The notes under the pieces: generated by a model | What the model was told of the DNA's origin: nothing | Database searches by the model: none | What the model saw: the letters and a program-made list of their open reading frames with translations, nothing else | Shown here: positions 5,921 to 26,775 of the stretch, piece after piece | Layout of the letters: every line of letters starts with the position of its first letter | Position numbering within the stretch: position 1 is the stretch's first letter | Assembly: GCA_001303415.1 (NCBI GenBank) | Contig: LJTN01000023.1 | Location: 1 to 45,083, forward strand | Source of the DNA: Myxococcales bacterium SG8_38 | GTDB lineage: Bacteria; Myxococcota_A; Polyangia; Polyangiales; Houyiibacteriaceae | Length of the DNA: 45,083 nucleotides | Direction of reading: 5' to 3' | Translations under genes and position numbers: made by a program

Positions 5921-6004
5921 CGCGAGTCGGAAGGTGCGTCGATGGCCGCTTGCGGTCAAGCTAGCAGCAGCTGGCTTTCGGAGCGTAGCTGCCCGGTCTC
6001 GGTT

Positions 6005-7140: not shown

Positions 7141-7166
7141 CGGTAGCTCCCCCTCGGTCTTTCGCG

Positions 7167-8345: not shown

Positions 8346-8412
8346 GTCCCTATGGGTGACACAATCTCGGCGGCGGGACCATTGGGCATCTGTACAGGAG
8401 GGCCCTGCAACG

Positions 8413-9549: not shown

Positions 9550-9603
9550 CAGGTGACGCTAGCATGGGGTGGACCGGGGCGCTGGTAGCCCTAGACTTCA
9601 CCC

Positions 9604-12432: not shown

Positions 12433-14415
12433 TCATCCGTAGACCTGGGGAATTTCGTGGCGCGCCGACTCCGCGTCAAGCGCACGGACCGCATGAGTCT
12501 CGTCGAACCAAACATAGGCGTCGAACTGCCACGGCAGCGCCGCTTGAAAGTAGTGGCTCTGCAGCTCGGTCTCTGGCCGATAGATGACGCCGATGGCCCG
12601 CTCCAAGCGCGGTGACGCCAACTCCTCGCGCACCGCCTCGCGGACCGGGTTGCGCAACGCCAGAAGAAAGGCGGGCACCTCCGCGTCGTGAAATAGTCGT
12701 TCGTAGCTCGTCGGATGCGACGGTCGCACTCTCTTGACGGCCATTGGTCCGCCCCAGTCGGTCGCAGCGGCCACGGTTCCCGTGTGGGTGCCGAAGCCGA
12801 TGGAAAACGCGGAATGGCCGAAGCTCATCCGGCAGAGCTGGCCGATGTTGTGCTCCCCGCGTGCTGCACCCATTTCGGTCGCCCGCGCATCGCCGACGTG
12901 CGAGTTGTGTGCCCAGACGACCGCCTTGGCCCGCGGGCCGCGAAACTCCAGCAGGCGCTCCAAGGTGTCGAACATGTGCTGGTCGCGGAGGTTCCACGAA
13001 TCGGGGCCTCCGTAGTACATCACGCGGTAATACTCCTCTGCCGCAGCCACCAAATGCGCGTTGGAGGTGGCATCGAAAAAGCGATCTCCGTCCGCCAAGG
13101 CGTACTCGAGGCGACGCTCGAGCAGGTCTCGAAGAACCTCGACCACCGGACCCTCGCACCGCGCGTAGCCTCGGCTGATCGCGGCACGTCCATAGAGCGC
13201 CGGGTCGCGCTCCCAAGGCGAGAGACAGGCGTAGCGTTGTTTTGCGATCTCGGCAGCCTTCGGATCGACGTCGCGCAGGTAGTCGAGCACCGCGTCGATC
13301 GACTTGTACAAGCTGTAGAGGTCCAGTCCGCAAAATCCGACCCGCCGCCGTGAATCGTCGATGAGCTCGTTGTGCGACTTGAGCCATGCGATGAGCTCGA
13401 CCACCTCTCGATTCCGCCACATCCACGTAGGAAAGCGCGTGAAGATCGGCTCTTCCCGAATCGGATAATCCAAGTCACGAATGTGATGATCGATGCGGGC
13501 GGCGTCCGGCCAGTCGCCCTCGATGGCCACCACGTCGAAGCCGCGCCGCAGGACCAGCTCGGTCGTGATGCGCGTTCTCATGCGATAGAACTCCGAGGTT
13601 CCGTGCGTGGCCTCGCCGAGAAGGACGACCCGAGCATCGCCGATCTGATCGAGCAAGGGACCGAGCTCTACGTCGTCGATTGCCGCAAACGGCTGACAAG
13701 CCTCGCGCACCAGATGGGCGACCGGAGGCTCCGGCGTCGGAACTCGCTTGGCGCTCGGTGCTCCGGCGTCTTCCGCAAAACCCGCCGCGCCGATGAGCGG
13801 GACGAACCGCACGCCCCCCAGATCCTCAGTGCGCGCTTCGCCATCGGGCTGCTTGGTCACCCTCAACAAGCGTTGGTCGCGGACCTCGGCGCCGACGGGA
13901 ATCACCATTCGGCCGCCGGGAGCAAGCTGCTCCACGAGGGCTTGGGGGACCGAGGGCCCTCCTGCAGAGACGAGGATCGCGTCGAAGGGCGCGTGCTCGG
14001 GCCAACCGAGGGTTCCATCTCCACACAACACGTGCACGTTGGGATAGCCGAGCTCCCGCAGCCGGCTTCTTGCCTCGTCGGCAAGCGCGCGGTGCCGCTC
14101 GATGGTGTAGACTTCCGCTGCGATTTCTCCGAGGACGGCAGCCGCGTAGCCCGAACCGGTTCCGATCTCCAAGACCTTGTCGTTCGGCCCGATGCGCAAC
14201 GCCTCGGCCATCGCGGCAACGATGTAAGGCTGAGAGATCGTCTGTCCCTCCTCGATGGGCAGCGGGGTGTCCTCGTAGGCAAACTCGGACAGGTGCGTGG
14301 GAAGGAACGCCTCTCGGGGCACGCTGCGCATCGCTTCGAGCACGGCCGTCTGACGCACTCCCCGCGCCTCGATCTGGCGCTTCACCATTTGCCTCCGCTG
14401 CTCTTGCCTGTCCAT
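12433..14415 (-). CDS. Protein-L-isoaspartate methyltransferase fused to erythromycin esterase-like domain
   Basis: The 660-residue product has two parts. Residues 5-210 form a PIMT domain: 'MVKRQIEARGVRQTAVLEAM', motif I 'VLEIGTGSGYAAAV' at 81-94 and 'GPFD/APFDAILVSAGGP'-type motif II. In this family it uses S-adenosylmethionine to repair isoaspartyl residues in aged proteins. Residues 235-660 form an EreA/EreB-like hydrolase: 'LLGEATHGTSEFYRMR' with His271, 'VAIEGDWPDAARID' and 'VWAHNSHVGDARATEMG'. The linker (212-232) is Pro/Ala-rich. The start at 14415 lies one base after the groEL stop codon (14417-14419), so translation is probably coupled. The substrate of the second domain is unknown, and a drug-resistance role should not be assumed. 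Confidence 0.85.
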   Translation of the reverse strand: MDRQEQRRQMVKRQIEARGVRQTAVLEAMRSVPREAFLPTHLSEFAYEDTPLPIEEGQTISQPYIVAAMAEALRIGPNDKVLEIGTGSGYAAAVLGEIAAEVYTIERHRALADEARSRLRELGYPNVHVLCGDGTLGWPEHAPFDAILVSAGGPSVPQALVEQLAPGGRMVIPVGAEVRDQRLLRVTKQPDGEARTEDLGGVRFVPLIGAAGFAEDAGAPSAKRVPTPEPPVAHLVREACQPFAAIDDVELGPLLDQIGDARVVLLGEATHGTSEFYRMRTRITTELVLRRGFDVVAIEGDWPDAARIDHHIRDLDYPIREEPIFTRFPTWMWRNREVVELIAWLKSHNELIDDSRRRVGFCGLDLYSLYKSIDAVLDYLRDVDPKAAEIAKQRYACLSPWERDPALYGRAAISRGYARCEGPVVEVLRDLLERRLEYALADGDRFFDATSNAHLVAAAEEYYRVMYYGGPDSWNLRDQHMFDTLERLLEFRGPRAKAVVWAHNSHVGDARATEMGAARGEHNIGQLCRMSFGHSAFSIGFGTHTGTVAAATDWGGPMAVKRVRPSHPTSYERLFHDAEVPAFLLALRNPVREAVREELASPRLERAIGVIYRPETELQSHYFQAALPWQFDAYVWFDETHAVRALDAESARHEIPQVYG

Positions 14416-14416
14416 G

Positions 14417-16036
14417 TCAGAACTCCGGCATGGCCGGGCTTGGCTCGCGGCTCTTCTCCTCGATCTCGGTAAGCGTGCCCTCGGTGAGCAGCAGGGTTCC
14501 TGCCACCGAGATCGCGTTTTCCAACGCGACGCGGACGACCTTGGCCGGATCGATGATCCCGGCTTCACCGAGATCGACGTACTGTCCCGTGTTGGCGTCG
14601 AAACCAAAGTCACCGGTCCCCGAACGCAACCGGTCGACGACCACTCCCGGATCGACGCCGGAGTTGAGGGCGATCTGTCGCACCGGGGCCTCGAGAGCCC
14701 GCCGTAACACGCCGATCCCGGTCTTGATGTCGCCATCCGCACGGCGCTCCTCTTCCGCCAGCGCGTCGGCGAGCCGCAAGAGAGTGAGCCCACCGCCCGC
14801 CACGATGCCCTCCTCGACCGCTGCTTTGGTCGAGCTGATCGCATCGTCGAACGCGTCTTTGCGGTTCTTCAGCTCCACTTCGGAGGGTGCGCCCACGTGG
14901 ATCACGGCGACGCCGCCCGCCAGCCTGGCCAGCCGCTCTTGGAGCTTTTCACGATCGTAGTCCGAGGTGGTTTGCTCGATTTGCGCGCGAATCTCCGCAC
15001 AGCGGCCCTCGATGGCGGACTTTTCGCCTTCGCCGCCGATGATGGTCGTCGTGTCTTTGTCGATGACGACGCGCTTTGCAGTCCCGAGGTCGCTTAGCGT
15101 CACGGCGGAGAGCTTCACACCGAGCTCCGAGGAAACGACCTGCCCTCCGGTCAGCACGGCCAAGTCTTGCAGCATCGCCTTGCGTCGATCGCCAAAGCCG
15201 GGAGCCTTGACTGCGGCGCAAGGAAACGTGCCCCGGAGCTTGTTGACGACCAGGGTCGCCAAGGCTTCGCCTTCGACGTCCTCGGCGACCAGCAGGATCG
15301 CACGCCCCGCTTGGGCGACCGCCTCGAGGACGGGTAACAAGTCCCTCATCGATGAAATCTTGGTATCGCTGAGCAAGACATAAGGAGTTTGCAACTCGAC
15401 CTCCATGCGCTCGGCATCGGTGACGAAGTAGGCCGAGAGGTAGCCACGATCGAACTGCATGCCTTCTACCACCTCGAGGGAGGTTTCCGTGCCCTTGGCT
15501 TCCTCGATCGATACGGTTCCCTCGTCACCTACTTTGTCGAGCGCCTCGGCGACGAGCTCGCCGATCGAGGCATCGCCGTGTGCCGAGATCGTGGCGACTT
15601 GCGTTTTTTCCTTTGCGCTCGTCACCGGCCTCGAGAGCTTGGCGAGCTGCTCGACGGCGAGCTTCGTGCCGCGATCGAGACCACGCTTGATGTCGATGGC
15701 GCTTGCGCCGGAGGTCACGTTTCGAAGCCCGTCGGCGTAGACGGCGTGCGCGAGCACGGTCGAGGTGCTGGTGCCGTCACCCACCAAGTCGCCCGTACGG
15801 ACCGCTGCCTGACGCAGCATCTGCGCGCCGAGGTTCTCCTCTGGATCTTTCAGGTTGATCTGTTTGGCGATGGTCACGCCATCGTCGCAAACGAGGGGCG
15901 AGCCCCACTTCTTTTCGATGAGAATGCTCTTGGCCTTGGGGCCCAGCGTGACGCGGACGGCATTGGCCAATGCCGCCGCGCCCGCCAGCACCTTTGCCCT
16001 TGCCTCATCGCTGAATCGAAGCTGGGTGTGCGTCAT
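14417..16036 (-). CDS. Orphan GroEL/Cpn60 paralogue
   Basis: The 539-residue chaperonin subunit has the ATP-binding loop as '[11 protein letters not shown]' (usually GDGTTTAT) and retains the catalytic Asp. '[14 protein letters not shown]' and the second catalytic Asp region '[10 protein letters not shown]' are also present. It lacks the C-terminal GGM repeat, ending [13 protein letters not shown], and no groES lies anywhere in the window. A GGAG site sits 6-7 bases before the ATG. It follows hsp20 by 15 bp in the same operon. It most likely acts as a stress-specific paralogue beside a housekeeping groESL elsewhere, using an external GroES, though this is inference. Confidence 0.9.
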
Positions 16037-16051
16037 CGGTGACTCCGTGAG

Positions 16052-16507
16052 CTAGGATTTGACCGCAACGGCGCGCGCCGTGGACTTCTTCGGCTCCGTG
16101 CGTGGAATCCGTACCGTCAGCAGGCCGTCCTTATAGCTTGCGTCGACTTTGTCCTCGTTGGCATCATCGGGCAGCTTGAAGCTCCTCATGAAGCTGCCGT
16201 AGGAGCTCTCGACGCGGTGATACTTCTTGCCCTTTTCTTCCTTCTTCTCCCGCCGCTCCCCGCGAAGCGTGAGCACGCGATCTTCGACGTTCACCTCAAG
16301 GTCCTCCTGCTTCACACCGGGGAGCTCGGCCTCGATCCGGTACTCCTCATCCGTTTCGGAGACGTTGCATGAGGGAGTCCAATCCGCGATGGACAGCGAC
16401 TCGCGCTCCCCAAACGGCCATGTCGCCAACATGTCGCGGAACGCTTCTTGGAGGCTTCCAAACCCTGCAAACGGGTCTCGCCCTCTTCTCATGAGTGTCA
16501 TGGTCAT
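16052..16507 (-). CDS. Hsp20 small heat-shock protein
   Basis: The product is about 151 residues long. It has the alpha-crystallin domain 'WTPSCNVSETDEEYRIEAEL', then PGVKQEDLEVNVEDRVLTLRG and the closing 'ASYKDGLLTVRIPR'. It acts as an ATP-independent holdase that keeps unfolding proteins soluble. Start choice is ambiguous: the ATG at 16507 has its GGAG only 3 bases away, while the ATG at 16501 (MTLMRRG) has the same site at good spacing and may be the true start. It sits between porB and groEL in the operon, passing clients to GroEL or Lon by analogy with other bacteria. Confidence 0.9.
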   Translation of the reverse strand: MTMTLMRRGRDPFAGFGSLQEAFRDMLATWPFGERESLSIADWTPSCNVSETDEEYRIEAELPGVKQEDLEVNVEDRVLTLRGERREKKEEKGKKYHRVESSYGSFMRSFKLPDDANEDKVDASYKDGLLTVRIPRTEPKKSTARAVAVKS

Positions 16508-16525
16508 CTTCTCCTTTCTCATATG

Positions 16526-16542
16526 GCACGCCCGGCGCGTGC
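16526..16542. promoter_or_regulatory. Inverted repeat in the hsp20 leader
   Basis: GCACGC (16526-16531) and GCGTGC (16537-16542) are separated by 5 bases, with partial extension outward (ATG/CAT). It lies about 20 bases upstream of the hsp20 start codon and just before the ribosome site. It could be a repressor site or a leader hairpin that influences hsp20 translation. It does not match the CIRCE or HAIR operator consensus sequences that I know. Confidence 0.35.
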
Positions 16543-16597
16543 ATGGATAAGCGAAGCAAAAGTCGCGCCAACGTATCCCGCACCAAGACGCGGGAGA

Positions 16598-17509
16598 TCA
16601 GACCGAGTCCCAGTAGCCGTCCACCCGTGCTTGCAGCTCCGCCAGCAGCCGATCGTTGCGCTGAGGATGGAATAGATGGGCGAATCGACCCTGCTTCTCG
16701 AGGTACTGCTCGACGGGCGCCCTCCGCCGCGGCACGACCGTGTGCGCCACCGATCCGTCCACGTACTCCTTGAGCGGCCAGATTCCCGTCTTGACCGCGA
16801 GCTGACCGATTTCGATCGAGTCGCGCGGCTCGAACTCCCAACCGGTCGGACAAGGCGCAAGCGCGATGATTAACCGGGGCCCACGCAGGCTCTTTGCTTT
16901 TTCGATCTTTCGCGCGAGGTCAAGGGGCTCTGACCCGATGACCGTGGCGACGTAGGCGGGTTGATGCGCCGCCCAAATCGAAAACAGATCCTTCTTGTAC
17001 CCGGAAAACCCACCCGGTCCCCGAGTCGTGCTCGTCTTGGCGGCGTGGGGCGTCGCGCCGGAAGCTTGGTGGCCGGTGTTTCCGTAGCCCTCGTTGTCGT
17101 AGCAAATGTAGAGAAAGTCCAAGCCGCGCTCGATTGCGCTCGAGGTCGAAGAAAGCCCCATGCCGTAGGCAGACCCGTCGCCCGTGAGCACGACGACGTC
17201 GAGATCGTCCTCTGGCGGCATCCTTCCCTGCTCGAGGAGGATGTCGAGCGCGTCGCGCACACCTTGCGCACCCGCGGGCGCAGAGGCCATGGAGGTGTAC
17301 AACCACGAGCTCCGAAAAGGTGTGAACGGAAAGACCGAGAGGAGTGTCATACACCCTGCGGCGTTGACGAATACGCTCTTCGGACCGAGGACGTCGTAGA
17401 TCTCGTGAAGGGCGATCAAGCCTCCGCAACCCGCGCACATGGGAGTTCCCGTGCCGAGCAAGTGCGTCGACGGCAGGTCTTTCATGCGCTTGAACGCGGT
17501 TTCATTCAT
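16598..17509 (-). CDS. 2-oxoacid:ferredoxin oxidoreductase, beta subunit (PorB-like)
   Basis: The 303-residue protein has the thiamine-diphosphate and Fe-S pattern of the POR beta subunit: 'GTGTPMCAGCGGLIALHEIY' (two Cys), 'NAAGCMTLLSVFPF' (third Cys), 'VVVLTGDGSAYGMGLSSTSSAIERG' (the GDG...N-type ThDP motif continuing to 'CYDNEGYGNTGHQASGATPHAA') and 'LAPCPTGWEFEP' (fourth Cys). With the alpha subunit it would oxidise pyruvate or another 2-oxoacid to the acyl-CoA and CO2 and reduce ferredoxin. It overlaps porA by the ATGA junction at 17506-17509. Substrate specificity (pyruvate, 2-oxoglutarate or branched-chain) cannot be read with certainty. Confidence 0.9.
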   Translation of the reverse strand: MNETAFKRMKDLPSTHLLGTGTPMCAGCGGLIALHEIYDVLGPKSVFVNAAGCMTLLSVFPFTPFRSSWLYTSMASAPAGAQGVRDALDILLEQGRMPPEDDLDVVVLTGDGSAYGMGLSSTSSAIERGLDFLYICYDNEGYGNTGHQASGATPHAAKTSTTRGPGGFSGYKKDLFSIWAAHQPAYVATVIGSEPLDLARKIEKAKSLRGPRLIIALAPCPTGWEFEPRDSIEIGQLAVKTGIWPLKEYVDGSVAHTVVPRRRAPVEQYLEKQGRFAHLFHPQRNDRLLAELQARVDGYWDSV

Positions 17510-18753
17510 CGTTTCACCTCGAGCTCATTGCGCTCGACCTCTGCGATGGCTTGGAGCTTTCGAATCTCGCGCAGCTCGTCGCGCGTGAAGAGAAGTCGAG
17601 GCAGCGGGCTCCGTCCCTCATCGATCGCCTTGCGTGTTTCCGCAGCGATCTCATAGAGCTCCTCTGGGCTGATGTCGCGCCCGCCGAGGCCCCCGATGAA
17701 GCTCGCCAAGATCGGGGGTGCTTTCGGATGACCGTAGAGCGCCGAGGCAACCTCGCTGTGGAGCACCCCGCCCTGGCCCATCGACAGATTCTGGTCGATG
17801 ACCGCCAGACCGCGCGCCCCCGAGGTGACCCGCCGCAAAGCGTCGACCGGCAGAGGCCGCAGCAGGCGGATCCGCGCCAGCCCGACGCGCCAACCAGCCT
17901 CTCGAAGCTGATCGACCGCCGCCTTGGCCTTTGTGGCGAAGGAGCCGATCATGACGAACAAGATGTCGGCGTCCTCGCAACGATAGGCCTCGATCGCCTC
18001 GTGGCGGCGCCCGAACGCCGCCTCGAATTCATCGGCAACCTCGTCGTAGACCTCGATTGCTCGCAGGGACGCCAAGTGCGCTTGGTAACGAAAGTACGAG
18101 TAAGGCGAGCCGCCCAGCACGGCGACCCCCTGGCTGGTGGGCGCACTTGCTCGAAATCGCAGGTTTTGCGCATCGAACGGTGGAAGGAACCGCCGCGCCA
18201 GGGCGGGATCGGGCAGCTCGACGGGCTCGCGCGTGAACGACAAATAGAAGCCATCCAGATTGACGATGACCGGGAGCCGGATCCGAGTGTCCTCGGCGAT
18301 GCGGTACGCCATCAAGATCGTGTCGACTACTTCTTGGCAGGTGGCGCAGTGAAGCTGCAAGAAGCCCGAGTCCCTGGCGGCCAGAACGTCCGTATGGTCG
18401 CTCTCGAGCGTCGTCGGGGTTCCAAGCCCCCGCGACACATTCACCAGGACAAAGGGTGCTCGCCATCCCGCGACCGAAAAGATCATCTCCATCCCGTAGA
18501 GCAGGCCCTGGCTGGAGGTGGCAGTAAACACGCGCACCCCGGTGGCCGCGGCGGCGCCCGCCGCCGTAATCATCGAGTGCTCGGACTCGAGCGTGACGAG
18601 CCTCCCCGGCATCTCGCCCGACTCGAACCAGTTGGCGAGTGTTTCGATGATCTCCGTCTGGGGCGTGATGGGAAAGGCGGGCACGTAGTCGACCTCGGCC
18701 AACCGTGCTCCCCAGGCAGCGGCGCCATTGCCGGTCAGTAGCTCTCGGCTCAT
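17506..18753 (-). CDS. 2-oxoacid:ferredoxin oxidoreductase, alpha subunit (PorA-like)
   Basis: The 415-residue protein starts MSRELLTGNGAAAWGARLAEVDYVPAFPITPQTEIIETLA, with the GNxAxAxG and YPITPQT-like signatures of the POR alpha pyrimidine-binding domain. It continues with 'ESEHSMITAAGAAAATGVRVFTATSSQGL' and a C-terminal transketolase-like domain 'ADILFVMIGSFATKAKAAVDQLREAGWRVGLARIRLLRPLP'. It carries no Fe-S cysteine motif, as expected. The ATG at 18753 overlaps the upstream gamma-delta gene by ATGA, and its own stop overlaps porB likewise. This points to strict translational coupling of the enzyme complex. Confidence 0.9.
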   Translation of the reverse strand: MSRELLTGNGAAAWGARLAEVDYVPAFPITPQTEIIETLANWFESGEMPGRLVTLESEHSMITAAGAAAATGVRVFTATSSQGLLYGMEMIFSVAGWRAPFVLVNVSRGLGTPTTLESDHTDVLAARDSGFLQLHCATCQEVVDTILMAYRIAEDTRIRLPVIVNLDGFYLSFTREPVELPDPALARRFLPPFDAQNLRFRASAPTSQGVAVLGGSPYSYFRYQAHLASLRAIEVYDEVADEFEAAFGRRHEAIEAYRCEDADILFVMIGSFATKAKAAVDQLREAGWRVGLARIRLLRPLPVDALRRVTSGARGLAVIDQNLSMGQGGVLHSEVASALYGHPKAPPILASFIGGLGGRDISPEELYEIAAETRKAIDEGRSPLPRLLFTRDELREIRKLQAIAEVERNELEVKR

Positions 18754-19682
18754 CGGCTCTCGAGCTCCTCTCTTGGGGTCGCCTCTTCGGGGACGGCAGC
18801 GATCGCATGGGATGGGCAAATCGCGACGCAAATCATGCAGCCCTTGCAGTGATCGTAGTCGATTTCAGGCCTGCCTTCGGGGCTCACCGCAATCGCGCTT
18901 TCCGGACAGTACGTGCTGCAAATCCACCAGCAACGGTTGCACCGGGCCTCGTCGACGACAGGCCGTGCCGTGCGCCACGCGCCGGTCTCCACATGCTCGC
19001 TGGTAGCGGCAGCATGGATTGCCGGAGCCGAAATCTTGGCCTCCTCCGGCGCGAGGTGGATCCAGTCCGGCGCCTCGTACTCCTCGGCACGAATGTCGCG
19101 GGCTTCTCTCACGACACCCTCGTGCGCCTCCATGTCCTCGTACGCAGCCAGGGCACGCCGCTCGTTCTCGCGGACGGCGCGATCGCCAAGCGGTTCGAGC
19201 TCTTTTGCGACCGCTGCCATCAGCGCCTCCCGCGAGATGACGCCGGTGAGACGCGCCGCCGCTCCTGCCGACACGCACCCCACGAACGGCAAGTCGGTGT
19301 CTGCAGCCACGTCCCCATTCGTGGGTAGGACGATCACCGGGCCAGCGAGATTGAGCCGATGCCTCCACGAGTCCGCATCGTCACGGCTGTGAATGAGCAT
19401 CACTGTCTGCGCGCCGACGCCGTGCATCACCCCTGCCGCGGGCACGGCGGGCAAGGTATCATCGCCGACGATGACCAAATCCGGATTGCGGATGACGCCG
19501 CGCTCCTGGATAGGCTTCTGGGAAGCGCGAACATACGCGAAAGTCGGGGCGCCCCGGCGCTCTGCTCCGTACCGCGGTGCGTCTTGCACCTCGAATCCGC
19601 AAGAGAAGAAGGCGGTACCGAGCACGCGGCTCGCCGTCTTCATTCCTTGTCCGCCCCGACCGTGAAACCGGATTCGAAACAT
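18750..19682 (-). CDS. 2-oxoacid:ferredoxin oxidoreductase, fused gamma-delta subunit
   Basis: In this 310-residue fusion, residues 1-180 are the gamma domain ('RIRFHGRGGQGMKTASRVLG', 'GFEVQDAPRYGAERRGAPTFAYVR'), which binds CoA in this family. Residues 235-300 are a delta-type 2x[4Fe-4S] ferredoxin domain: 'CNRCWWICSTYCPE' (Cys spacing 2-3-3) and 'CKGCMICVAICP'. A helical linker joins them. The two Fe-S clusters relay electrons to an external ferredoxin. It lies 2 bp downstream of the glutamate dehydrogenase stop codon, so the genes share one transcript. Confidence 0.88.
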   Translation of the reverse strand: MFRIRFHGRGGQGMKTASRVLGTAFFSCGFEVQDAPRYGAERRGAPTFAYVRASQKPIQERGVIRNPDLVIVGDDTLPAVPAAGVMHGVGAQTVMLIHSRDDADSWRHRLNLAGPVIVLPTNGDVAADTDLPFVGCVSAGAAARLTGVISREALMAAVAKELEPLGDRAVRENERRALAAYEDMEAHEGVVREARDIRAEEYEAPDWIHLAPEEAKISAPAIHAAATSEHVETGAWRTARPVVDEARCNRCWWICSTYCPESAIAVSPEGRPEIDYDHCKGCMICVAICPSHAIAAVPEEATPREELESR

Positions 19683-19684
19683 GA

Positions 19685-20821
19685 CTAGACGAAGCCCGGT
19701 GCCGTGGAGAACGAGCCAAACCGCCTGACACGCATCGCGTTTTCGATACGCGCCGTTGCCAGCTCGACGGCAGCGCGGCGCGGCAAGATTCCGTTCGTCT
19801 TGGCCACGTGCAAAACAAGCTCGGTGTTTCGACGAATTTTCTCTGCGATGGTGGCAAATGCGATCGATTGGCTCGAACCTCGGTATTCGACTGCCGCGCA
19901 GATCACGCCTCCAGCGTTGGCGATGAAGTCCGGAATACTGAGCACACCCCGGTCTGCCAGCATCTGCTCGGCAGCACCCGTGATGGGAATGTTTGCGCCT
20001 TGCACGACGAGCTTGGCTCGTAGACGGTTCACATTGTCCTCGCGAATCACATCGGGCCGCGCAGCAGGAATCCAGATCTCGCAGGCTATGTCGATGATAT
20101 CGTCACGACGGAGCCTGCGCGCGTCGTCGTAGTCCAACAGCGAGCCACCGCTGGTCTTGATCTCCATGAGCCGCAAGACGTTCAGTCCATCCGGATTGTG
20201 AATCGTGCCCTGCGAGTCCGCAGCAGCGATTAGTATCGCACCCTTTTCAGTCAGAAACCGGGCTGCGTGCATACCGACCGCGCCGAAACCTTGGATGGCA
20301 ACGCGCGCGCCCTTCAGCTCGAAGTCGCAATGTCCGAGGGCCACGTCGGTGGCGTGACTGATGCCGAAGCCAGTCGCTCCCAGCTCGTCGAGGGGAATCC
20401 CACCGAGCTCGGCTGGAAGCCCTATTGCGCGTCCGATCTCATCGTGGACCCAGGCCATGCACTCCTCGTCCGTGCCCATGTCGGGACCGAAAATGTACGC
20501 CTCTTCGTTGCGCAAGGCGCTGGCAAAGCCTCGAATGAGGCGCTCCTTGTCACGCTTGGGCATTTTGGGGTCGCCGTAGAGCACCGCCTTGCCACCACCG
20601 TGGGGCAACCCGGCGGCGGCGTTTTTCAAGGTCATCGCGCGCGCCAAACGAGCGCATTCTACGGCGCTCACGTCGGGAGCCATCCGCACGCCGCCAATCG
20701 ATGGCCCGATCGCCACGTTGTCGACGACTAGAATGCCGCGGAGCCCAAGCGACGCCTCATGAACGTGAATCGTCTTGAGCGGGCCCAGCGCATCCGCATG
20801 CTCGAAGATGTCCGCCGTCAC
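19685..20821 (-). CDS. Glu/Leu/Phe/Val-type amino acid dehydrogenase
   Basis: The 378-residue NAD(P)-dependent oxidative deaminase family member has 'GPSIGGVRMAPDVSAVECARLARAMTLKNAAAGLPHGGGKAV', containing the two catalytic-type Lys. The Rossmann segment is 'GARVAIQGFGAVGMHAARFL', followed by 'NAGGVICAAVEYRG'. The start is a GTG at 20821. It is the first gene of the seven-gene operon, so it may feed 2-oxoacid directly to the adjoining ferredoxin oxidoreductase. Family knowledge supports glutamate as the likely substrate, but leucine and related amino acids cannot be excluded. A second enzyme of the family is encoded at 34805-36211. Confidence 0.88.
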   Translation of the reverse strand: MTADIFEHADALGPLKTIHVHEASLGLRGILVVDNVAIGPSIGGVRMAPDVSAVECARLARAMTLKNAAAGLPHGGGKAVLYGDPKMPKRDKERLIRGFASALRNEEAYIFGPDMGTDEECMAWVHDEIGRAIGLPAELGGIPLDELGATGFGISHATDVALGHCDFELKGARVAIQGFGAVGMHAARFLTEKGAILIAAADSQGTIHNPDGLNVLRLMEIKTSGGSLLDYDDARRLRRDDIIDIACEIWIPAARPDVIREDNVNRLRAKLVVQGANIPITGAAEQMLADRGVLSIPDFIANAGGVICAAVEYRGSSQSIAFATIAEKIRRNTELVLHVAKTNGILPRRAAVELATARIENAMRVRRFGSFSTAPGFV

Positions 20822-20878
20822 GACCTCGTCTCGACTCGTGGCGAGCAGGATACCACTCCGGGAAGCAAGCCATCAATC

Positions 20879-20893
20879 GTGGCAGAATGCCAC
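20879..20893. promoter_or_regulatory. Perfect inverted repeat between divergent operons
   Basis: GTGGCA-GAA-TGCCAC is a perfect 6-bp inverted repeat with a 3-bp spacer. It sits 58 bp upstream of the glutamate dehydrogenase start and 160 bp upstream of the hibernation-factor start, within the 231-bp divergent control region (20822-21052). That region must hold both promoters. The symmetry and position suggest a protein operator. I cannot identify the regulator or clear -10/-35 boxes. Confidence 0.4.
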
Positions 20894-21052
20894 AGCGCTT
20901 GGGGTGCCCCATGCGAATAAGTAGCGCCAGGAATGCTTGGTCGCGCAAGATCTGCGCCTCGCCTTTTCTCCGAGGTCGACGGAATTCGCCCGATACGCCG
21001 GTCGGTTCCGCGGCACGAACTTTGCCTGATTGGGAGCCGAGAGGAGTAAGCC

Positions 21053-21616
21053 GTGCAACAGCCCTTGCAAATCACTTTTAAGGAGATGGAGCCGTCGGCT
21101 GCGATCGAAACGTGGGTGAGAGAAAATGCCACGAAGCTCGAGAAATTCTACGAGCCGATCGTGCATTGCCACGTGGTCGTCGAAGCGCCGCACCGTCATT
21201 CGCATCGGGGTCGACTCTACGACGTGCGTATCGACATCACCGTGCCTGGAGGCGAGATCGTGGTGAGCCATCAGGGTCCCAAGGACCAAGCACACGAGGA
21301 TGTCTACGTGGCGCTTCGGGACGCCTTCCGGGCCGCACGCCGACAGCTTCAAGACGTCGCGCGAAAACAGAGAAAGGAGGTCAAGAGCCACGACCTGCCT
21401 ACCCACGCGCGCGTGACCAAGTTATTCCCGGCCGATGACTACGGCTTCATCGAAGGAGAGGATGCGCTTGAGATCTATTTTCACCGCAATGCTGTTCTCG
21501 ACGATGCGTTCGATGCCCTCAGCGTCGGAAGCGTGGTGCGCTACGTGCTCGCGGAGGGCGAAGGCCAAGCAGGCCCACAAGCGAGCACGGTGGAGCTCAT
21601 CGGCGAGGCACGCTGA
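21053..21616 (+). CDS. Ribosome hibernation factor (HPF/RaiA) with C-terminal cold-shock domain
   Basis: The 187-residue product starts at a GTG with a clear AGGAG site. Residues 1-108 form the S30AE/HPF domain ('PLQITFKEMEPSAAIETWVRENATKLEKFY', 'DVRIDITVPGGEIVVSH', 'EDVYVALRDAFRAARRQLQD'). In that family it binds the decoding centre of the 30S subunit and silences ribosomes. Residues 118-184 form a cold-shock fold with RNP1-like 'DDYGFIE' and RNP2-like 'IYFHRNAV', a nucleic-acid binder. The usual dimerisation tail of long HPF is absent. It is the first gene of a rightward operon with archease and rtcB. Confidence 0.88.
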   Translation: MQQPLQITFKEMEPSAAIETWVRENATKLEKFYEPIVHCHVVVEAPHRHSHRGRLYDVRIDITVPGGEIVVSHQGPKDQAHEDVYVALRDAFRAARRQLQDVARKQRKEVKSHDLPTHARVTKLFPADDYGFIEGEDALEIYFHRNAVLDDAFDALSVGSVVRYVLAEGEGQAGPQASTVELIGEAR

Positions 21617-21636
21617 GGCCATGTCTGTGGTTTCCG

Positions 21637-22053
21637 ATGGCTAGCTGGGAGCACTTTTCCCACGAAGCGGACATCGGCGTTCGCGGCCGGGGCGAGTCGC
21701 CGGACGCGGCTTTCGAGCAGGCTGCGCTGGCCCTCACCGCTGCGATTACGGACCTAGCGCTGGTGCAACGAGATGCGCAGGTCGACATCCGCTGCCACGC
21801 ACCGCGACTGGACATCCTGTTCGTCGATTGGCTCAACGCCATCATCTACGAGATGACGACGCGATCGATGCTGTTCCGCGAATTTGAGGTCCGCATCGAG
21901 GGACAGGAGCTGCGCGCGCAGGTTCGTGGTGAATCGGTGGACCGAAAGCGCCACCAGCCCGTGGTCGAGCCCAAAGGGGCGACTTTTACCGAGCTCTTGG
22001 TGACTCAGGAGGATGACGGACAATGGGTTGCGCAATGCATCGTGGACGTGTGA
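21637..22053 (+). CDS. Archease
   Basis: The 138-residue protein has the archease signature: 'WEHFSHEADIGVRGRGESPDAAFEQAALALTAAITDL' with the N-terminal H-x-A-D metal ligand region. 'LFVDWLNAIIYEMTTRSMLFREFEV', 'GESVDRKRHQPVVEPKGATFTELLV' and a terminal Asp (IVDV) follow. In characterised systems archease activates the RNA ligase RtcB by promoting its guanylylation and multiple turnover. It lies 20 bp after the hibernation-factor gene and 12 bp before rtcB, so the three are co-transcribed. There is no strong ribosome site before the ATG. Confidence 0.92.
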   Translation: MASWEHFSHEADIGVRGRGESPDAAFEQAALALTAAITDLALVQRDAQVDIRCHAPRLDILFVDWLNAIIYEMTTRSMLFREFEVRIEGQELRAQVRGESVDRKRHQPVVEPKGATFTELLVTQEDDGQWVAQCIVDV

Positions 22054-22065
22054 GATCAGATAGCC

Positions 22066-23496
22066 ATGGACATCACAGCGCTGAAGAGGGTTTCTGAGGA
22101 TCATTGGGAGCTTGCTCCTACCGGCAAGATGCGCGTGCCGGTCGTTTTCTATGCGGATCGAGCGCTGCTCGAGGGCATGGACGACAAAGTCCAGCAGCAG
22201 GCCCGCAACGTGGCCTCGCTGCCGGGGATCGTGAAGGCGAGCTACGTGATGCCCGACGGGCACTGGGGCTACGGCTTTCCGATCGGTGGGGTCGGCGCCT
22301 TCGATGCCGAGCAAGGTGGCGTCGTCTCGGCAGGCGGCGTTGGCTTCGACATTTCCTGTGGTGTTCGCTGCCTGCTCACCGGGCTTCGCACCAGCGACGT
22401 CGAGCCCATCAAAGAGCAACTGGCCGACGCGCTTTTCGAACGCATTCCGGCTGGCGTTGGAAGCACCGGCCGCATTCATCTCGATGATCAGGAAATGACG
22501 GCCATGTTGGAAGGCGGCGCGCGTTGGGCGGTCGACCGCGGATGGGGCCGCTCTGAAGACCTGGAGCGAATCGAGGAGCACGGCTGCATGCGGGGAGCCG
22601 AGCCGCAATATATCTCGGAGAAGGCGCGACATCGGCAACGAGACGAAATGGGAACGCTCGGCTCGGGAAACCATTATCTCGAGGTCCAACGGGTCGCCGA
22701 GGTGTTGGATCCCGAGGTTGCGAATCAGCTATCCATCGCGCAGGACGACGTCGTCGTCAGCATCCACTGCGGATCGAGGGGACTCGGCCATCAGGTAGGG
22801 ACGGAGTTCTTGCGGGAAATGGCGCTCGCAGCCGAGAAGCACGGAATCGAGCTGCCCGATCTGGAGCTCGCCTGCGCGCCGCTGCGCTCCGAGGTGGGCC
22901 GCCGGTATCTCGGCGCAATGCGCGCCGGGATCAACTGCGCCCTCGCCAACCGCCAGATCATCACACACCTCACCCGCGAGGTGTTTAGCCGGGTCCTATC
23001 CAAAGCCGAGCTTCCGTTGCTCTACGACGTGTCGCACAACACCTGCAAGGAGGAAGAGCACATCGTGGACGGGGTGCAGCGGCATCTTTTCGTCCATCGA
23101 AAGGGGGCCACCCGCGCCTTCGGGCCGGGGCATCCAGACCTACCCGAGCAGCTCAGCGAGATCGGCCAACCCGTCCTGATCGGCGGCAGCATGGGAACCG
23201 AATCGTGGTTGCTGGTCGGTACGGCGGAAGGCATGTCGTTGGCATTCGGGTCGGCCTGTCACGGTGCAGGGCGAAGAATGAGCCGCCACGCAGCCAAGAA
23301 GCAATGGCGCGGCAGCAAGCTGATCAAGAACCTCGCACATCGAGGCATCATCGTTCGTTCGGTCAGCATGCGAGGCGTGGCCGAGGAGGCGCCCGGCGCG
23401 TACAAGGACGTCCGTGCAGTCGTGGATTCCGCCGATCGAGCCGGGCTTGCGCGCAAGGTGGCCCGCCTCCAGCCCATGGTGTGCATCAAGGGCTAG
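22066..23496 (+). CDS. RNA-splicing ligase RtcB
   Basis: The 476-residue ligase has the full RtcB pattern: 'YVMPDGHWGYGFPIGGVGAFD', 'SAGGVGFDISCGVRCL' with Mn ligands Asp95 and Cys98, 'GTLGSGNHYLEVQ', 'VVVSIHCGSRGLGHQVGTEF', 'YDVSHNTCKEE' and the guanylylation site 'FGSACHGAGRRMSR' with its His. The length is normal. It joins 2',3'-cyclic phosphate to 5'-OH RNA ends using GTP and Mn2+. In bacteria it repairs tRNA or rRNA cut by toxins or stress. Its stop codon lies inside a 24-bp palindrome shared with the convergent usp gene. Confidence 0.95.
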   Translation: MDITALKRVSEDHWELAPTGKMRVPVVFYADRALLEGMDDKVQQQARNVASLPGIVKASYVMPDGHWGYGFPIGGVGAFDAEQGGVVSAGGVGFDISCGVRCLLTGLRTSDVEPIKEQLADALFERIPAGVGSTGRIHLDDQEMTAMLEGGARWAVDRGWGRSEDLERIEEHGCMRGAEPQYISEKARHRQRDEMGTLGSGNHYLEVQRVAEVLDPEVANQLSIAQDDVVVSIHCGSRGLGHQVGTEFLREMALAAEKHGIELPDLELACAPLRSEVGRRYLGAMRAGINCALANRQIITHLTREVFSRVLSKAELPLLYDVSHNTCKEEEHIVDGVQRHLFVHRKGATRAFGPGHPDLPEQLSEIGQPVLIGGSMGTESWLLVGTAEGMSLAFGSACHGAGRRMSRHAAKKQWRGSKLIKNLAHRGIIVRSVSMRGVAEEAPGAYKDVRAVVDSADRAGLARKVARLQPMVCIKG

Positions 23497-23516
23497 ACCG
23501 AGTGCACTCGGTCTAG
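23493..23516. terminator. 24-bp perfect palindrome spanning two convergent stop codons
   Basis: CTAGACCGAGTG at 23493-23504 is followed directly by its reverse complement to 23516, a perfect 24-bp palindrome. It supplies the TAG of rtcB (23494-23496) and the TAG of the convergent usp gene (23513-23515). It may act as a bidirectional transcription stop, although no T-run follows on either side. A related motif overlaps another stop codon at 40531-40540. Confidence 0.6.
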
Positions 23517-24331
23517 GCGGCCTCGGTACGAACCACCACCACCGGACACCTCAGCTCTTGGCGAAGCGAGGTGAGACGGAGCTCTTCGAAGCCGCCCTCG
23601 CCGGCAGCGACGATCAACACGGTGGGCGATGCGCGACGGATGGCTGCGGCAAGGACTTCACGCTCGGCTTCGCGCACTCTGTGAATCGCCGCACGCTTCG
23701 GCCCAAAAGATTGAAGCCGGCGCCTCACTTCGTTCCAAGCTCGAGGCGACGGATCGGCCAGAAATACGAGCAGGGGCCGGCTGCTGGCTTCGGCGAGCTC
23801 GATCCCGGCTTCGAGCGCGCGGCTGCCACTGTCGGCCTGATCGAGGAGCACGGCGACCGGGCGGAGCCACGCGGCCTCGGCGGCCTGCAACATGCGCGAA
23901 GTCTCGTGAAGCTCTGCTGCCGACGCAAGGGCACGGCGCGCTGCGCCAAGCAGCAGCAGATCGACGTTTTGCGCCTCGGCCAGCGCGCTGCTCAGCGGGC
24001 CTCGATGCGTCCTGAAGGACCAAGGCAGCCCGAGGCTTTCCGCGAGCCGCTGTAGCTCCCGTTCGGCGCGCCTGGCTTGAACCTTGAGCTGACGCTCGAG
24101 GTCGCGCACGGCGAGAGGACGACGCTTGCTGGTGATTCGGGACACTTCGGAGATGAAAGGAAGGCTAGCGAGGCGGAAGAGGGTCTGATCTTCGATGAAG
24201 ACGCCGGTGATGTCGGCGCCCGTCTTGGGCAAAAGGGACCCCAAGACGCGAACCAGACCCGTATCGGAGCTTCCGCCCGCGAATATGACGGCGATGCGGC
24301 GCGTGCGGCGGTGCTCGGTCACGGCGGTCAC
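23513..24331 (-). CDS. Universal stress protein, two-domain
   Basis: The 272-residue protein starts at a GTG (24331) that overlaps the lon stop in a GTGA junction. The N-terminal half is 'RRIAVIFAGGSSDTGLVRVLGSLLPKTGADITGVFIED', with 'VDLLLLGAARRALASAAEL'. The C-terminal half is 'RPVAVLLDQADSGSRALEAGIELAEASSRPLLVFLAD', ending 'TVLIVAAGEGGFEELRLTSLRQELRCPVVVVR'. Both halves show the UspA alpha/beta fold. The ATP-binding G-2x-G-9x-G(S/T) motif is not obvious, which places it with non-ATP-binding types. It is probably produced together with the Lon protease. The role is a stress-survival accessory; the partner is unknown. Confidence 0.78.
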   Translation of the reverse strand: MTAVTEHRRTRRIAVIFAGGSSDTGLVRVLGSLLPKTGADITGVFIEDQTLFRLASLPFISEVSRITSKRRPLAVRDLERQLKVQARRAERELQRLAESLGLPWSFRTHRGPLSSALAEAQNVDLLLLGAARRALASAAELHETSRMLQAAEAAWLRPVAVLLDQADSGSRALEAGIELAEASSRPLLVFLADPSPRAWNEVRRRLQSFGPKRAAIHRVREAEREVLAAAIRRASPTVLIVAAGEGGFEELRLTSLRQELRCPVVVVRTEAA

Positions 24332-26775
24332 GGGCCCGACTCCTGCTTCTCTTGGCCGCGGAGCTTCCGGCGCTTCTCGGCCAGGTCCGACAGCCGAGCG
24401 CGCACCCGTTGATTGACCGTGCCATCGGGGAATGCGCCATCGGGGCCGGCCTCCCCGGCGGGAACACCGGTCAGGATCTCGATGGCCTGATTGACGTGAT
24501 TGACCGCATAGATGTGAAACTTGCCTTGATTGGCAGCCTCTCGGACGTCGCGACGCAGCATGAGATGCTTGACGTTGGCCTCCGGTATCAAGACCCCTTG
24601 GGAACCGCTGAGGCCGCGCGCCCGGCAGATGTCGAAGAAGCCCTCGATCTTCTGATTGACGCCGCCAATGGCCTGGACGTCGCCGCGTTGGTTGACGGAC
24701 CCGGTGACGCCGAAGGACTGATCGATCGGCAGCCCGGACAACGCCGAAAGCAAGGCGCATAGCTCGGCGCACGATGCGCTGTCACCCTCTACTCCACCAT
24801 ACGACTGCTCGAACACGAGGCTCGCTGACAAGGAAAGGGGCTCGTCAGACGAGTACGTCGCGGCCAAGTAGCTCGACAGGATGAATACGCCCTTGGAATG
24901 AATTGGGCCGCCAAGCTCGACCTCCCTCTCGATGTCGATGACCTTCCCGGGGCCCAAGGCGACGCGCGCCGTGATCCTGTTTGGCTTCCCGAACGCGAAG
25001 TCTGCGATCTGGAGCACCGCGAGACCGTTGATCTGACCGACGGTCTTGCCGGCCGTATCGATCAAAATCGTCTTCCGAAGGATCTCTTCTTGCAGCCGAT
25101 CGCGAATGCGACTGCTACGGCGAACGCGGCTTTCGATCGCTTGCTCGACGGCTTGTCGACCGATGATTTCCGAGCCGCTCTTCGACGCCCAAAAATCGGC
25201 CTCCCGCATGATGTCGGTGATAGGCCGGATGCGAGCCGAAAGCTTCTCGGCATCCCAAGCCTCGCGGGCGCTCTCCTCGACGAGGCGCCCGATCGCCGGG
25301 CCGTCGAGAGGTTTGAGCGATTCTCTTCGTGCAATCGTCGCTAGCAGCCTGGCATAGAGCGCGGTGTTCTCATCGGTTCGAGCCACTTCGTCCTCGAAGT
25401 CGGCAGCCACCTTGAAGAGCGTCGAGAACTCCGGGTCGTATGCTTGAAGCAGGTAGTAGAGGATGCGCTCGCCGACCAACACGACCTTGACCGAAAGCGG
25501 AATGGGCTTGGGCTCCAGAGACACGGTGCTGACCAGGCTGTATGCTTGTCCGAGCGACTCGATACGAAGCTCACCCGATTGCAGGGCTCGCTTCAGCCCA
25601 TCGTAGGCGAAAGGCTGCATCAACAGCTTTCGGGCGTCGATCACCAGATAGCCGCCGTTGGCCTTGTGAAGCGCGCCGGCTTTGATCAGTTGGAAGTTGG
25701 TGACCAACGTGCCCATCTGGGAGACGTGCTCGACCCGGCCGAGCAGTTGGTGATAGGTGGGATTCCGCTCCAGCTCGACGGGAGCCCCCTTCGCGCCGGA
25801 GTGGTCGACCAGTAGATTGACGGCATAACGCTGCGTGGCGCCCGATGCTTCGCCATCCGGTGTCCCCATTCGTCCACCGAAAAGCTGTTGGAGCTGCGAC
25901 TGCTCCTCGGGCGACGTGCGAAAGATGGAAATGTTCTCGACGATGTCCTCACGGACCTGTTGCAGGTAATCGACCACCTGCTCGTGATCCACATACTTGT
26001 GCGACAGCTCCTCGATGAGGCTGCCCACTGCCCACAGTGCGATCTCGCGGTCGAGCTCTCGAATTCTGCGCCGAGCTTCGCGCACGCGCTTCGGCGCCTG
26101 CTGCATCACGGACTGGAGCTCCTTGCCGACTTCCTCGGTCTCCCGCACCAAGCGTTCTTGCTCCTCCTTCGGCAGCTCGTTGAACTCCTCGGGGCCGAGG
26201 GTTTCGCCGTCACGTATTGGCGCGAACGCGATACCGGTGGGCGTCTGGATGATCCCGATCCCCCGCTCCTTGGCGCGTCGACTCACCTCTTCGAAGGCCG
26301 CTTCCTGTTCCTCCTGTAGCTCGTTTTGGATGGCTTCGCGCCGTGTGCGGTAATCCTCCGTCTCGAACGCCGCCGGAATCGCGCCGCGGGCATCGTCGAT
26401 CAGTTGACGCATGTCCTCCGCCAGCTCCCGGCCACGGCCGGCTGGCAGCTCGATGGCATGAGGCTGTCTGGACTCCTCGAAGTTGTTGACGTAGCACCAA
26501 TCGGACGCCGGTTTCTCATCGCGCGCTTTTCCCTCGAGGTACCGCTGCACCAGAGAGTGCCTTCCGGTGCCTTCCCGGCCGAGCACGTAGAGGTTGTAGC
26601 CTTCGTGCCTGATGCTCGCGCCGAGGTGGATGGCTTCGGTAGCGCGGTCCTGCCCCACCAGATCCTCGAGATCTTCGAGCTCTTCGGTGGTCTTGAAACC
26701 GAGCTCTTGCGGATCACAGCTTTGATAGAGAGCAGCTGGAGCCAGCTTTCGTGATGTAGACGAGTCTTCGGCCAT
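24328..26775 (-). CDS. Lon-family ATP-dependent protease (LonB/AAA_32 type)
   Basis: The 815-residue product begins MAEDSSTSRKLAPAALYQSC. It has 'LVGQDRATEAIHLGASIRHEGYNLYVLGREGTGRHSLV' (nucleotide-binding loop), a coiled-coil insertion (residues ~145-235) and 'NGGYLVIDARKLL' (Walker B-like). The Lon protease domain has catalytic Ser666 in 'GVEGDSAS' and Lys709 in 'GGVNQKIEGFFD', the same 43-residue spacing as E. coli Lon. There is no N-terminal LAN domain and no membrane segment. It degrades damaged or regulatory proteins. The longer frame from 26877 is not needed. Confidence 0.92.
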   Translation of the reverse strand: MAEDSSTSRKLAPAALYQSCDPQELGFKTTEELEDLEDLVGQDRATEAIHLGASIRHEGYNLYVLGREGTGRHSLVQRYLEGKARDEKPASDWCYVNNFEESRQPHAIELPAGRGRELAEDMRQLIDDARGAIPAAFETEDYRTRREAIQNELQEEQEAAFEEVSRRAKERGIGIIQTPTGIAFAPIRDGETLGPEEFNELPKEEQERLVRETEEVGKELQSVMQQAPKRVREARRRIRELDREIALWAVGSLIEELSHKYVDHEQVVDYLQQVREDIVENISIFRTSPEEQSQLQQLFGGRMGTPDGEASGATQRYAVNLLVDHSGAKGAPVELERNPTYHQLLGRVEHVSQMGTLVTNFQLIKAGALHKANGGYLVIDARKLLMQPFAYDGLKRALQSGELRIESLGQAYSLVSTVSLEPKPIPLSVKVVLVGERILYYLLQAYDPEFSTLFKVAADFEDEVARTDENTALYARLLATIARRESLKPLDGPAIGRLVEESAREAWDAEKLSARIRPITDIMREADFWASKSGSEIIGRQAVEQAIESRVRRSSRIRDRLQEEILRKTILIDTAGKTVGQINGLAVLQIADFAFGKPNRITARVALGPGKVIDIEREVELGGPIHSKGVFILSSYLAATYSSDEPLSLSASLVFEQSYGGVEGDSASCAELCALLSALSGLPIDQSFGVTGSVNQRGDVQAIGGVNQKIEGFFDICRARGLSGSQGVLIPEANVKHLMLRRDVREAANQGKFHIYAVNHVNQAIEILTGVPAGEAGPDGAFPDGTVNQRVRARLSDLAEKRRKLRGQEKQESGP

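Follow-up and report, generated by a model that had tools for sequence, protein, structure and literature searches.

The cold-shock domain (CSD) of HPFcold, a class of the ribosome hibernation factor HPF, is described in a structure paper dated June 2026 as binding and shielding the anti-Shine-Dalgarno (anti-SD) sequence of 16S rRNA (PMC13392368). In Escherichia coli, MazF is reviewed as cutting off the last 43 nt of 16S rRNA together with the anti-SD, and RtcB as re-ligating them (PMC12186496); ribosome fractions from cells lacking rtcB are reported to be poorer in 16S rRNA (PMC5175333), and archease is reported to activate RtcB (PMC3973293). Here we analyse a 45,083-nucleotide stretch of Myxococcales bacterium SG8_38 (the window; contig C77 of a 3.6-Mb draft genome in 105 contigs, G+C 63%), in which an HPF gene with a cold-shock domain (HPF-CSD) stands directly ahead of archease and RtcB. 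Our best reading of the whole is a stress regulon that would be controlled by sigma54 and an enhancer and centred on protecting and re-ligating ribosomal RNA. That an HPFcold-archease-RtcB operon forms the centre of the surrounding gene island, protecting and repairing the translation machinery of non-growing cells, is in our judgement an even call. The central genes and the elements in front of them are as follows.

20943-20957, forward strand: palindrome GCGCA-AGATC-TGCGC, putative enhancer; the window's only perfect match
21011-21026, forward strand: sigma54-type -24/-12 element CGGCACGAACTTTGCC, ending 26 bp ahead of the HPF-CSD start; top-scoring site on the plus strand of the window
21053-21616, forward strand: HPF with cold-shock domain (HPF-CSD, HPFcold class; Pfam S30AE and CSD)
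21637-22053, forward strand: archease (Pfam, E 1.5e-36)
22066-23496, forward strand: RtcB RNA ligase (Pfam, E 1.3e-169)

The three genes are separated by only 20 bp (HPF/archease) and 12 bp (archease/RtcB). The first displays the HPFcold architecture, PF02482 (E 6e-16) followed by PF00313 (E 9e-8), and aligns over residues 1-178 with the HPFcold chain 9T0Z (phmmer E 7e-37). The window's RtcB can be aligned with its P. horikoshii counterpart from residue 4 to 476 (E 4e-154) and matches it in the segments D-x-x-CGVR, GNH, GSRGLGHQ, HN and CHGAGR, which we take to be the metal-binding and guanylylation segments; it is the sole RtcB match in the whole genome. Elsewhere in the genome, contig C54 carries another, short HPF near the sigma54 gene and contig C89 another GroEL, so both the HPF and the GroEL of the island are extra paralogues.

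HPF-CSD beside archease and RtcB in some Myxococcota, Alphaproteobacteria and Planctomycetota

One peptide pattern applied to GTDB genomes led to 152 confirmed HPF-CSD relatives, of which the 80 best loci were analysed. The nearest loci with named records come from metagenome-assembled genomes (MAGs) labelled Myxococcales or Polyangiaceae, plus one "uncultured bacterium", and the named members of the window's myxobacterial genus in the sample are MAGs throughout. Archease and/or RtcB lies within 3 kb of HPF-CSD in 15 of the 80 loci (L074, L075, L078, L089, L097, L099, L100, L101, L102, L122, L126, L127, L128, L134 and L137), in 14 of them on the same strand as HPF with the nearer gene 91 bp away or less; in the fifteenth, L134, RtcB is on the opposite strand and archease has no match in the genome. 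None of the 80 loci had archease or RtcB first appearing at 3-10 kb from HPF-CSD, although 751 kb was scanned in this far range against 425 kb in the near one, a contrast with P 2e-7 if positions are uniform and independent and relatedness is ignored. Of the 15 adjacent loci, six are close Geminicoccaceae-type relatives (L089, L097, L099-L102) and another two come from the window's genus. Archease was detected in 38 of the 80 HPF-CSD genomes (24/50 plus 14/30), against a background of 13/289 alphaproteobacterial, 43/282 same-phylum and 90/294 planctomycete genomes.

The converse, archease-anchored sample comprised 41 of 44 places in Myxococcota (window included), all 14 in Alphaproteobacteria, with archease recovered by the family model in 13, and 42 of 96 in Planctomycetota. 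For the planctomycete set, places starting less than 8 kb from the low contig end were passed over and the first 40 of the remainder by E-value were taken; L122 and L158, which had entered first as HPF-anchored or HPF-genome loci, were added and also appear in this sample as G635 and G312. An S30AE gene was found within 3 kb of archease in 9 of 96 loci, 8 of them with a CSD, where about 0.26 in 96 would be expected by chance assuming two S30AE genes per 4.5-Mb genome. These are 3/41 in Myxococcota (window, L007, L009), 4/13 in Alphaproteobacteria (L078, L089, L099, L174) and 2/42 in Planctomycetota (L122 and L228, the latter counted as S30AE with no CSD detected). Three further S30AE genes lie at about 4-6.2 kb from archease (L010, L182, L211), while a candidate in L210 was removed from the counts as its HPF match covers the cold-shock domain only. 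The S30AE model, derived from HPF-CSD proteins, recognises other HPFs poorly (the genome's own short HPF scores E 9e-4), so these counts do not prove specificity for HPFcold over other HPFs.

Gene order differs between the adjacent loci: HPF-archease-RtcB in the window, L075, L078 and L122, archease-RtcB-HPF in, for example, L089, L099, L127 and L137, and RtcB-archease-HPF in L009. On a 108-row RtcB tree without L210, adjacency changes at least 7 times, or 6 if L228 and L211 are also dropped; the tree was made with FastTree alone and has many open forks. This pattern suggests that distant bacteria joined HPF-CSD and archease-RtcB in different orders, and that the proteins may share a protect-and-repair job. 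The initial annotation of the window had proposed conserved synteny as a check on its island: what recurs across phyla is this adjacency, while the island is not kept as a block.

A putative promoter, a predicted regulon and a proposed mechanism

Upstream of the window's HPF-CSD, the pattern GG-N10-GC at -24/-12 with an upstream palindrome is satisfied, the GG of the element beginning 54 bp after the palindrome. This spacing and symmetry are as expected for the enhancer of a sigma54 activator. Scored with a consensus from general knowledge, the two best sigma54-type sites of the 45-kb window both precede stress units, HPF-CSD and Hsp20, the second being on the other strand.

16555-16570, reverse strand: sigma54-type -24/-12 element TGGCGCGACTTTTGCT, 32 bp before Hsp20; the window's highest score on both strands

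The third-best site (14490-14505, reverse strand, score 20) falls within GroEL, 77 bp ahead of PIMT. An alignment of the DNA before HPF-CSD in five genomes (window, L072, L073, L074, L075) revealed two conserved blocks in otherwise variable sequence, namely CGGCA-G-A-TTTGC and, 51-54 bp upstream, the palindrome GCGCA-N5-TGCGC. The exact sequence GCGCANNATCTGCGC occurs in 8 of 235 loci, 7 times before an HPF-CSD of the genus (some being the same place twice) and once in L139. A sigma54-like element also precedes Hsp20 or PIMT in L075, L073 and L003, and the pair of palindrome (at most 1 mismatch) and sigma54 element is found before the PIMT-Ere fusion (PIMT joined to an erythromycin-esterase-type domain) in L003 (gap 52), Hsp20 in L075 (gaps 52 and 109), PIMT in L073 (gap 108) and DNA polymerase X (PolX) in L075, where a single palindrome faces both HPF-CSD and the divergent PolX. 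A sigma54 promoter was sought before LonC, Usp and GDH1 of the window and not found, and KorABC-GDH1 and LonC-Usp have no shared promoter, neither element preceding LonC-Usp. The initial proposal that the units act together thus holds in part: the promoter and palindrome common to HPF-archease-RtcB and, in relatives, to Hsp20/PIMT-Ere point to shared control of two units. Because KorABC-GDH1 and LonC-Usp lack such a promoter and KorA is found in the window only, co-induction of all units is not indicated.

A search for the palindrome plus sigma54 pattern in 19 genomes of the genus returned 21 matches in 12 genomes, against 3 for a reversed control. Sixteen fall into two groups, HPF-CSD/PolX (6 matches in 5 genomes) and an esterase operon (10 matches in 10 genomes); the remaining five are isolated cases, a number close to that of the control. 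The esterase operon encodes an alpha/beta-hydrolase and a beta-lactamase-family esterase, the esterase itself following the promoter in six of the ten, and in the window's own genome it lies on contig C27 (L257, about 7326-9773), where its role is perhaps lipid mobilisation. Of six esterase-operon loci fetched, five have a stand-alone PIMT match no further than about 8 kb away. One genus genome (G289; L242, 1600-3027) carries the pattern with a wax-ester-synthase/DGAT gene, a single case that may be chance. No pattern match was found in 7 of the 19 genomes, including G012 and G017. The signature would delineate a first small predicted regulon of RNA-, DNA- and protein-repair genes in this myxobacterial genus. 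The window's genome encodes sigma54 (RpoN). A search for RtcR came up empty in all 19 genus genomes while detecting the E. coli positive control, so the activator should be another protein; a scan confined to proteins encoded near rtcB showed no RtcA domain.

From the gene identities, recurrent adjacency and conserved promoter- and enhancer-like sequences observed here, we infer transcription as an operon, an activator, a substrate and a timing along the following lines. Upon stress, a sigma54 activator other than RtcR would bind the palindrome at 20943-20957 and fire the promoter at 21011-21026. HPFcold would then park in the tRNA/mRNA cleft of the 30S subunit while its CSD holds the anti-SD tail of 16S rRNA, and archease-activated RtcB would re-join RNase-cut rRNA (and tRNA), with the 16S 3' tail as the most telling substrate. 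The neighbouring genes would handle the protein side, Hsp20 and GroEL by folding, PIMT by isoaspartate repair and LonC-Usp by turnover. The sequence evidence supports a partnership of HPFcold with archease-RtcB; as to its substrate, the anti-SD tail of 16S rRNA would be the simplest common target, because HPFcold shields it and RtcB re-ligates the MazF-cut tail. A bolder form of this proposal, which we consider doubtful, is that of one repair unit in which HPFcold keeps the RNase- or toxin-cut 16S tail placed in the mRNA exit channel for RtcB to re-join; hibernation would then offer ribosomes both shelter and a repair bay, and the arrangement would have arisen separately in at least 3 bacterial groups.

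Several observations weigh against a regulon centred on ribosomal RNA. RtcB or archease is not within reach in 65 of 80 HPF-CSD loci, nor is an S30AE gene within 3 kb in 87 of 96 archease loci; many loci stop at contig borders, and neighbour absences at those are not firm. As most loci of either kind are unassociated, the pairing of HPF-CSD with archease-RtcB is a recurrent option, not a rule. In a single-contig relative (L072, G300), HPF-CSD is about 340 kb from archease, and in G012 and G017 it lies immediately upstream of LonC-Usp, with GDH2 further on, LonC replacing archease-RtcB; a sigma54-like site accompanies HPF-CSD in this position in G017 and is lacking in its relative G012. A shared neighbourhood also signals shared selection, not a shared substrate, and RtcB could act on tRNA. 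Concerning the promoter, 3 sigma54 sites scoring at least 20 were found in the window against about 2 expected when shuffled (at 20.5 or more, 2 against 0.67 expected after Markov resampling), and 14 palindrome near-matches (at most 3 mismatches) against a chance mean of 18. With site scores this near chance, the promoter case rests on position and conservation. A loose pattern (palindrome with at most 2 mismatches, gaps of 25-119 bp) matched 173 times in all loci, mostly before no island gene, and 12 further matches at 0-1 mismatch precede no identified island gene (L014, L024 twice, L074, L078, L108, L115, L150 twice, L182 twice, and window position 34253); given so many stray matches, single sites outside the 51-54 bp spacing mean little. 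Finally, a palindrome with at most 2 mismatches is absent within about 190 bp upstream of the window's Hsp20, where the Kor genes now lie, which weakens the case for co-control in this genome.

A tentative but tenable alternative is that regulation is all that is shared, both functions being useful in stress with different targets, ribosomes for HPF and cleaved tRNAs for RtcB. The E. coli-type Rtc operon is indeed reported to be regulated by damaged tRNAs (PMC7790460), and the same palindrome and sigma54 element front the non-ribosomal PolX and esterase operon. However, adjacency also recurs in L078, L122 and nine archease-RtcB-HPF loci, whose scanned upstream DNA lacks any sigma54-like site with a score of 20 or more, and co-regulation by this one activator is therefore not its sole cause.

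The wider island

The genes of the island flanking the central operon, all on the reverse strand, are listed here.

12433-14412, reverse strand: PIMT and erythromycin-esterase-type domain fusion (PIMT-Ere), 659 aa (Pfam PCMT E 4.7e-65, Erythro_esteras E 2.4e-133)
14417-16036, reverse strand: GroEL (Pfam Cpn60; NCBIfam GroEL, 731.6 bits)
16052-16522, reverse strand: Hsp20 small heat-shock protein (Pfam HSP20 E 1.9e-30)
16598-17509, reverse strand: 2-oxoacid:ferredoxin oxidoreductase beta subunit (KorB/PorB-like; Pfam, NCBIfam)
17506-18831, reverse strand: 2-oxoacid:ferredoxin oxidoreductase alpha subunit (KorA), start codon uncertain (Pfam, NCBIfam)
18750-19682, reverse strand: 2-oxoacid:ferredoxin oxidoreductase gamma and delta (4Fe-4S) fusion (KorC/KorCD; Pfam, NCBIfam)
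19685-20821, reverse strand: Glu/Leu/Phe/Val dehydrogenase family enzyme (GDH1; Pfam, under every listed NCBIfam cut-off)
23513-24331, reverse strand: divergent tandem-Usp-like protein, coupled to LonC (AlphaFold model and Foldseek)
24328-26775, reverse strand: LonC-type S16 protease (Pfam; PDB match)

The genes named in the initial annotation are all present (Pfam/NCBIfam), with three corrections. Its PIMT does carry the PCMT domain, and a second, erythromycin-esterase-type domain had gone unmentioned; the fusion also occurs in Myxococcota locus L003 (12001-13992) and planctomycete locus L230 (12073-14058), where Hsp20 too lies near archease-RtcB. Its Lon-type protease is a Lon, refined here to the LonC subtype, with LonC_helical, LonB-like AAA and S16 protease domains all present (Pfam) and TTC1975/LonC as the top PDB match (4FWD, E 6e-93). 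Its Usp falls below the Pfam threshold (Usp E 0.09); tandem universal stress proteins top the Foldseek matches of a low-confidence AlphaFold model (mean pLDDT 64; 3AB8 E 1e-7, Rv2623 3CIS E 4e-7, TM-scores just about 0.35), from which the protein is probably a divergent tandem Usp. The near-zero spacing is confirmed, with gaps of 2-20 bp and overlaps between neighbouring genes (PIMT/GroEL 4 bp, GroEL/Hsp20 15 bp, KorB/KorA a 4-bp overlap, GDH1/KorC 2 bp, Usp/LonC a short overlap), as is the orphan status of GroEL, no GroES being adjacent among the proteins scanned.

Rfam and tRNA scans of the window gave no matches. In PADLOC, the only hit was mad2, which matched PIMT in its methyltransferase part (E 1e-26) and was not taken as defence, and spread by plasmids was set aside, with merely two short plasmid-collection matches (71.7% and 78.9% identity, 4% and 2% coverage).

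It is improbable that the full island (12.4-26.8 kb) is one co-evolved dormancy programme, including amino-acid fermentation via GDH and the 2-oxoacid:ferredoxin oxidoreductase. All its genes do stand together in the window, and near HPF or archease elsewhere PolX, Hsp20, PIMT or PIMT-Ere, Lon proteases and Usp also recur. Yet the KorA family model matched the window alone among the loci examined, KorABC-GDH1 and LonC-Usp lack a shared promoter, and PolX sits divergent to HPF in G284, with only a short PolX match there in G287 (L074). The single 14-kb functional block of the initial annotation does not stand, its pieces being shuffled within the genus, where the island is not conserved as a block.

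Within the genus (with G300-G305 treated as the same genomes as G292, G282, G287, G284, G012 and G017), long LonC relatives of at least 66% identity occur in 11 of 19 genomes, the window's own included. A Usp-like gene follows LonC in 10 of the 11 (tblastn), and the eleventh, G293, has a 104-aa ORF with a similar start; at the order level, the LonC-Usp pair is present in G149 and was not seen in G296, G066, G258 and G239. As in the window, OsmC-PNDR-FAD3-LonC-Usp faces RtcB-archease in G292 and G287. On one contig of G284, LonC-Usp is about 7.5 kb from PIMT-Ere-Hsp20-PolX divergent from HPF-archease-RtcB, and PIMT-Ere lies near archease-RtcB in G017. G287 shares the window's acyl-CoA dehydrogenase flank and thus looks like the orthologous locus, with HPF-archease and archease-RtcB-Usp-LonC on two contigs that both end inside archease; between flank and HPF-CSD (L074), PIMT-Ere, GroEL, Hsp20 and Kor-GDH1 were not found, and a 788-aa permease-like ORF (judged by eye) occupies their place. 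In the window itself, a 1041-aa BTAD and AAA_16 regulator (30451-33576) adjoins the conserved FAD3-PNDR-OsmC flank. The KorB-KorA-KorCD-GDH1 segment (16598-20821) resembles an amino-acid to acyl-CoA oxidation unit, and the relative G284 has PolX at this place.

Although this variability and the permease-like ORF of G287 would fit an accidental neighbourhood, a variable region gathering unrelated genes, such an origin is very improbable given the near/far contrast, the repeated adjacency on the tree, the conserved promoter and the absence of any match to 14 family models in 14 arbitrary 20-kb regions (round coordinates, large contigs, ten genomes), which disfavours it for HPF-archease-RtcB and LonC-Usp, while it may apply to KorABC-GDH1.

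Homologues scattered at random, which the initial annotation had offered as its refutation, are not what other genomes display, as like genes cluster non-randomly in them. In planctomycetes, a LonA-like gene lies 0.6-1.1 kb upstream of archease-RtcB in 7 of 42 loci (L195, L196, L198-L201, L204), with PIMT downstream in L195, L196 and L198 and LonA confirmed by Pfam for L196; LonA-archease-RtcB-PIMT is, by predicted gene content, a parallel protein and RNA repair cluster in another phylum. One strand of L122 (10001-20558, Planctomycetota KatS3mg102) carries HPF-CSD, archease, RtcB, Hsp20, LonA, a CitMHS/ArsB-type transporter, a Usp-domain protein and PolX. True LonC (at least 600 bits) is found near HPF or archease in the genus, L081, L093, L109 and L226. 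Matches to the LonC model at 52-64 bits (L112, L122, L195, L196, L198-L201, L204) were rejected as other Lon proteases, the two checked by Pfam (L122, L196) being classical LonA. GroEL also occurs near archease in another Myxococcota family (L010, about 5300-8350; 71% identity to the window's), and an alphaproteobacterial contig (L183) has Hsp20-GroEL beside a partial archease match.

Comparison with known systems

The gene families themselves are known. In the mycobacterial DosR dormancy locus, Usp, Hsp20 and an erythromycin-esterase-domain protein occur together, and the model of the window's Usp-like protein resembles Rv2623; to our knowledge, the DosR locus has a different regulator type and no RtcB-archease unit. 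RtcB of the window is partnered by archease and HPFcold, whereas RtcA partners RtcB in E. coli, and RtcR, as noted, was in none of the 19 genus genomes. What the locus has in common with the E. coli rtcBA/RtcR/sigma54 system, as reported, is RtcB itself, probable sigma54 control and a link to ribosome stability (PMC5175333).

Among reported units that couple RtcB to the ribosome, the Balon stress operons have neighbours including RaiA, Hsp20, OsmC and RtcB, with archease unmentioned (PMC10901736); among the 40 window proteins scanned with Pfam, none showed an aeRF1-type domain. In the prfH-RtcB rescue/repair units, RtcB is described as coupled to a ribosome-acting protein that is a release factor (PMC6514570), whereas its partner in the window is a hibernation factor. 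As these two reports show, there is general precedent for RNA repair in the vicinity of hibernation genes. Our literature search, which mostly left subscription journals outside, found no paper joining HPFcold or hibernation with archease-RtcB.

The archease-rtcB operon described previously resembles the window in that archease adjoins rtcB; that paper names a tRNA splicing operon and never uses "stress" or "ribosom" (PMC3973293), and the predicted operon of the window adds HPF. The role of archease-RtcB in bacteria is poorly known. The repeated operon partnership would offer a concrete substrate, the anti-SD tail in resting ribosomes, and would connect the fields of ribosome hibernation and RNA repair. 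HPFcold CBU_0020, like the window protein, is reported with the S30AE-CSD architecture and about 180 residues, and the structure showing its binding comes from a species other than that of the window; the main text of that paper leaves RtcB and operons unmentioned (PMC13392368), whereas the window gene heads a predicted RNA-ligase operon behind a sigma54-type promoter.

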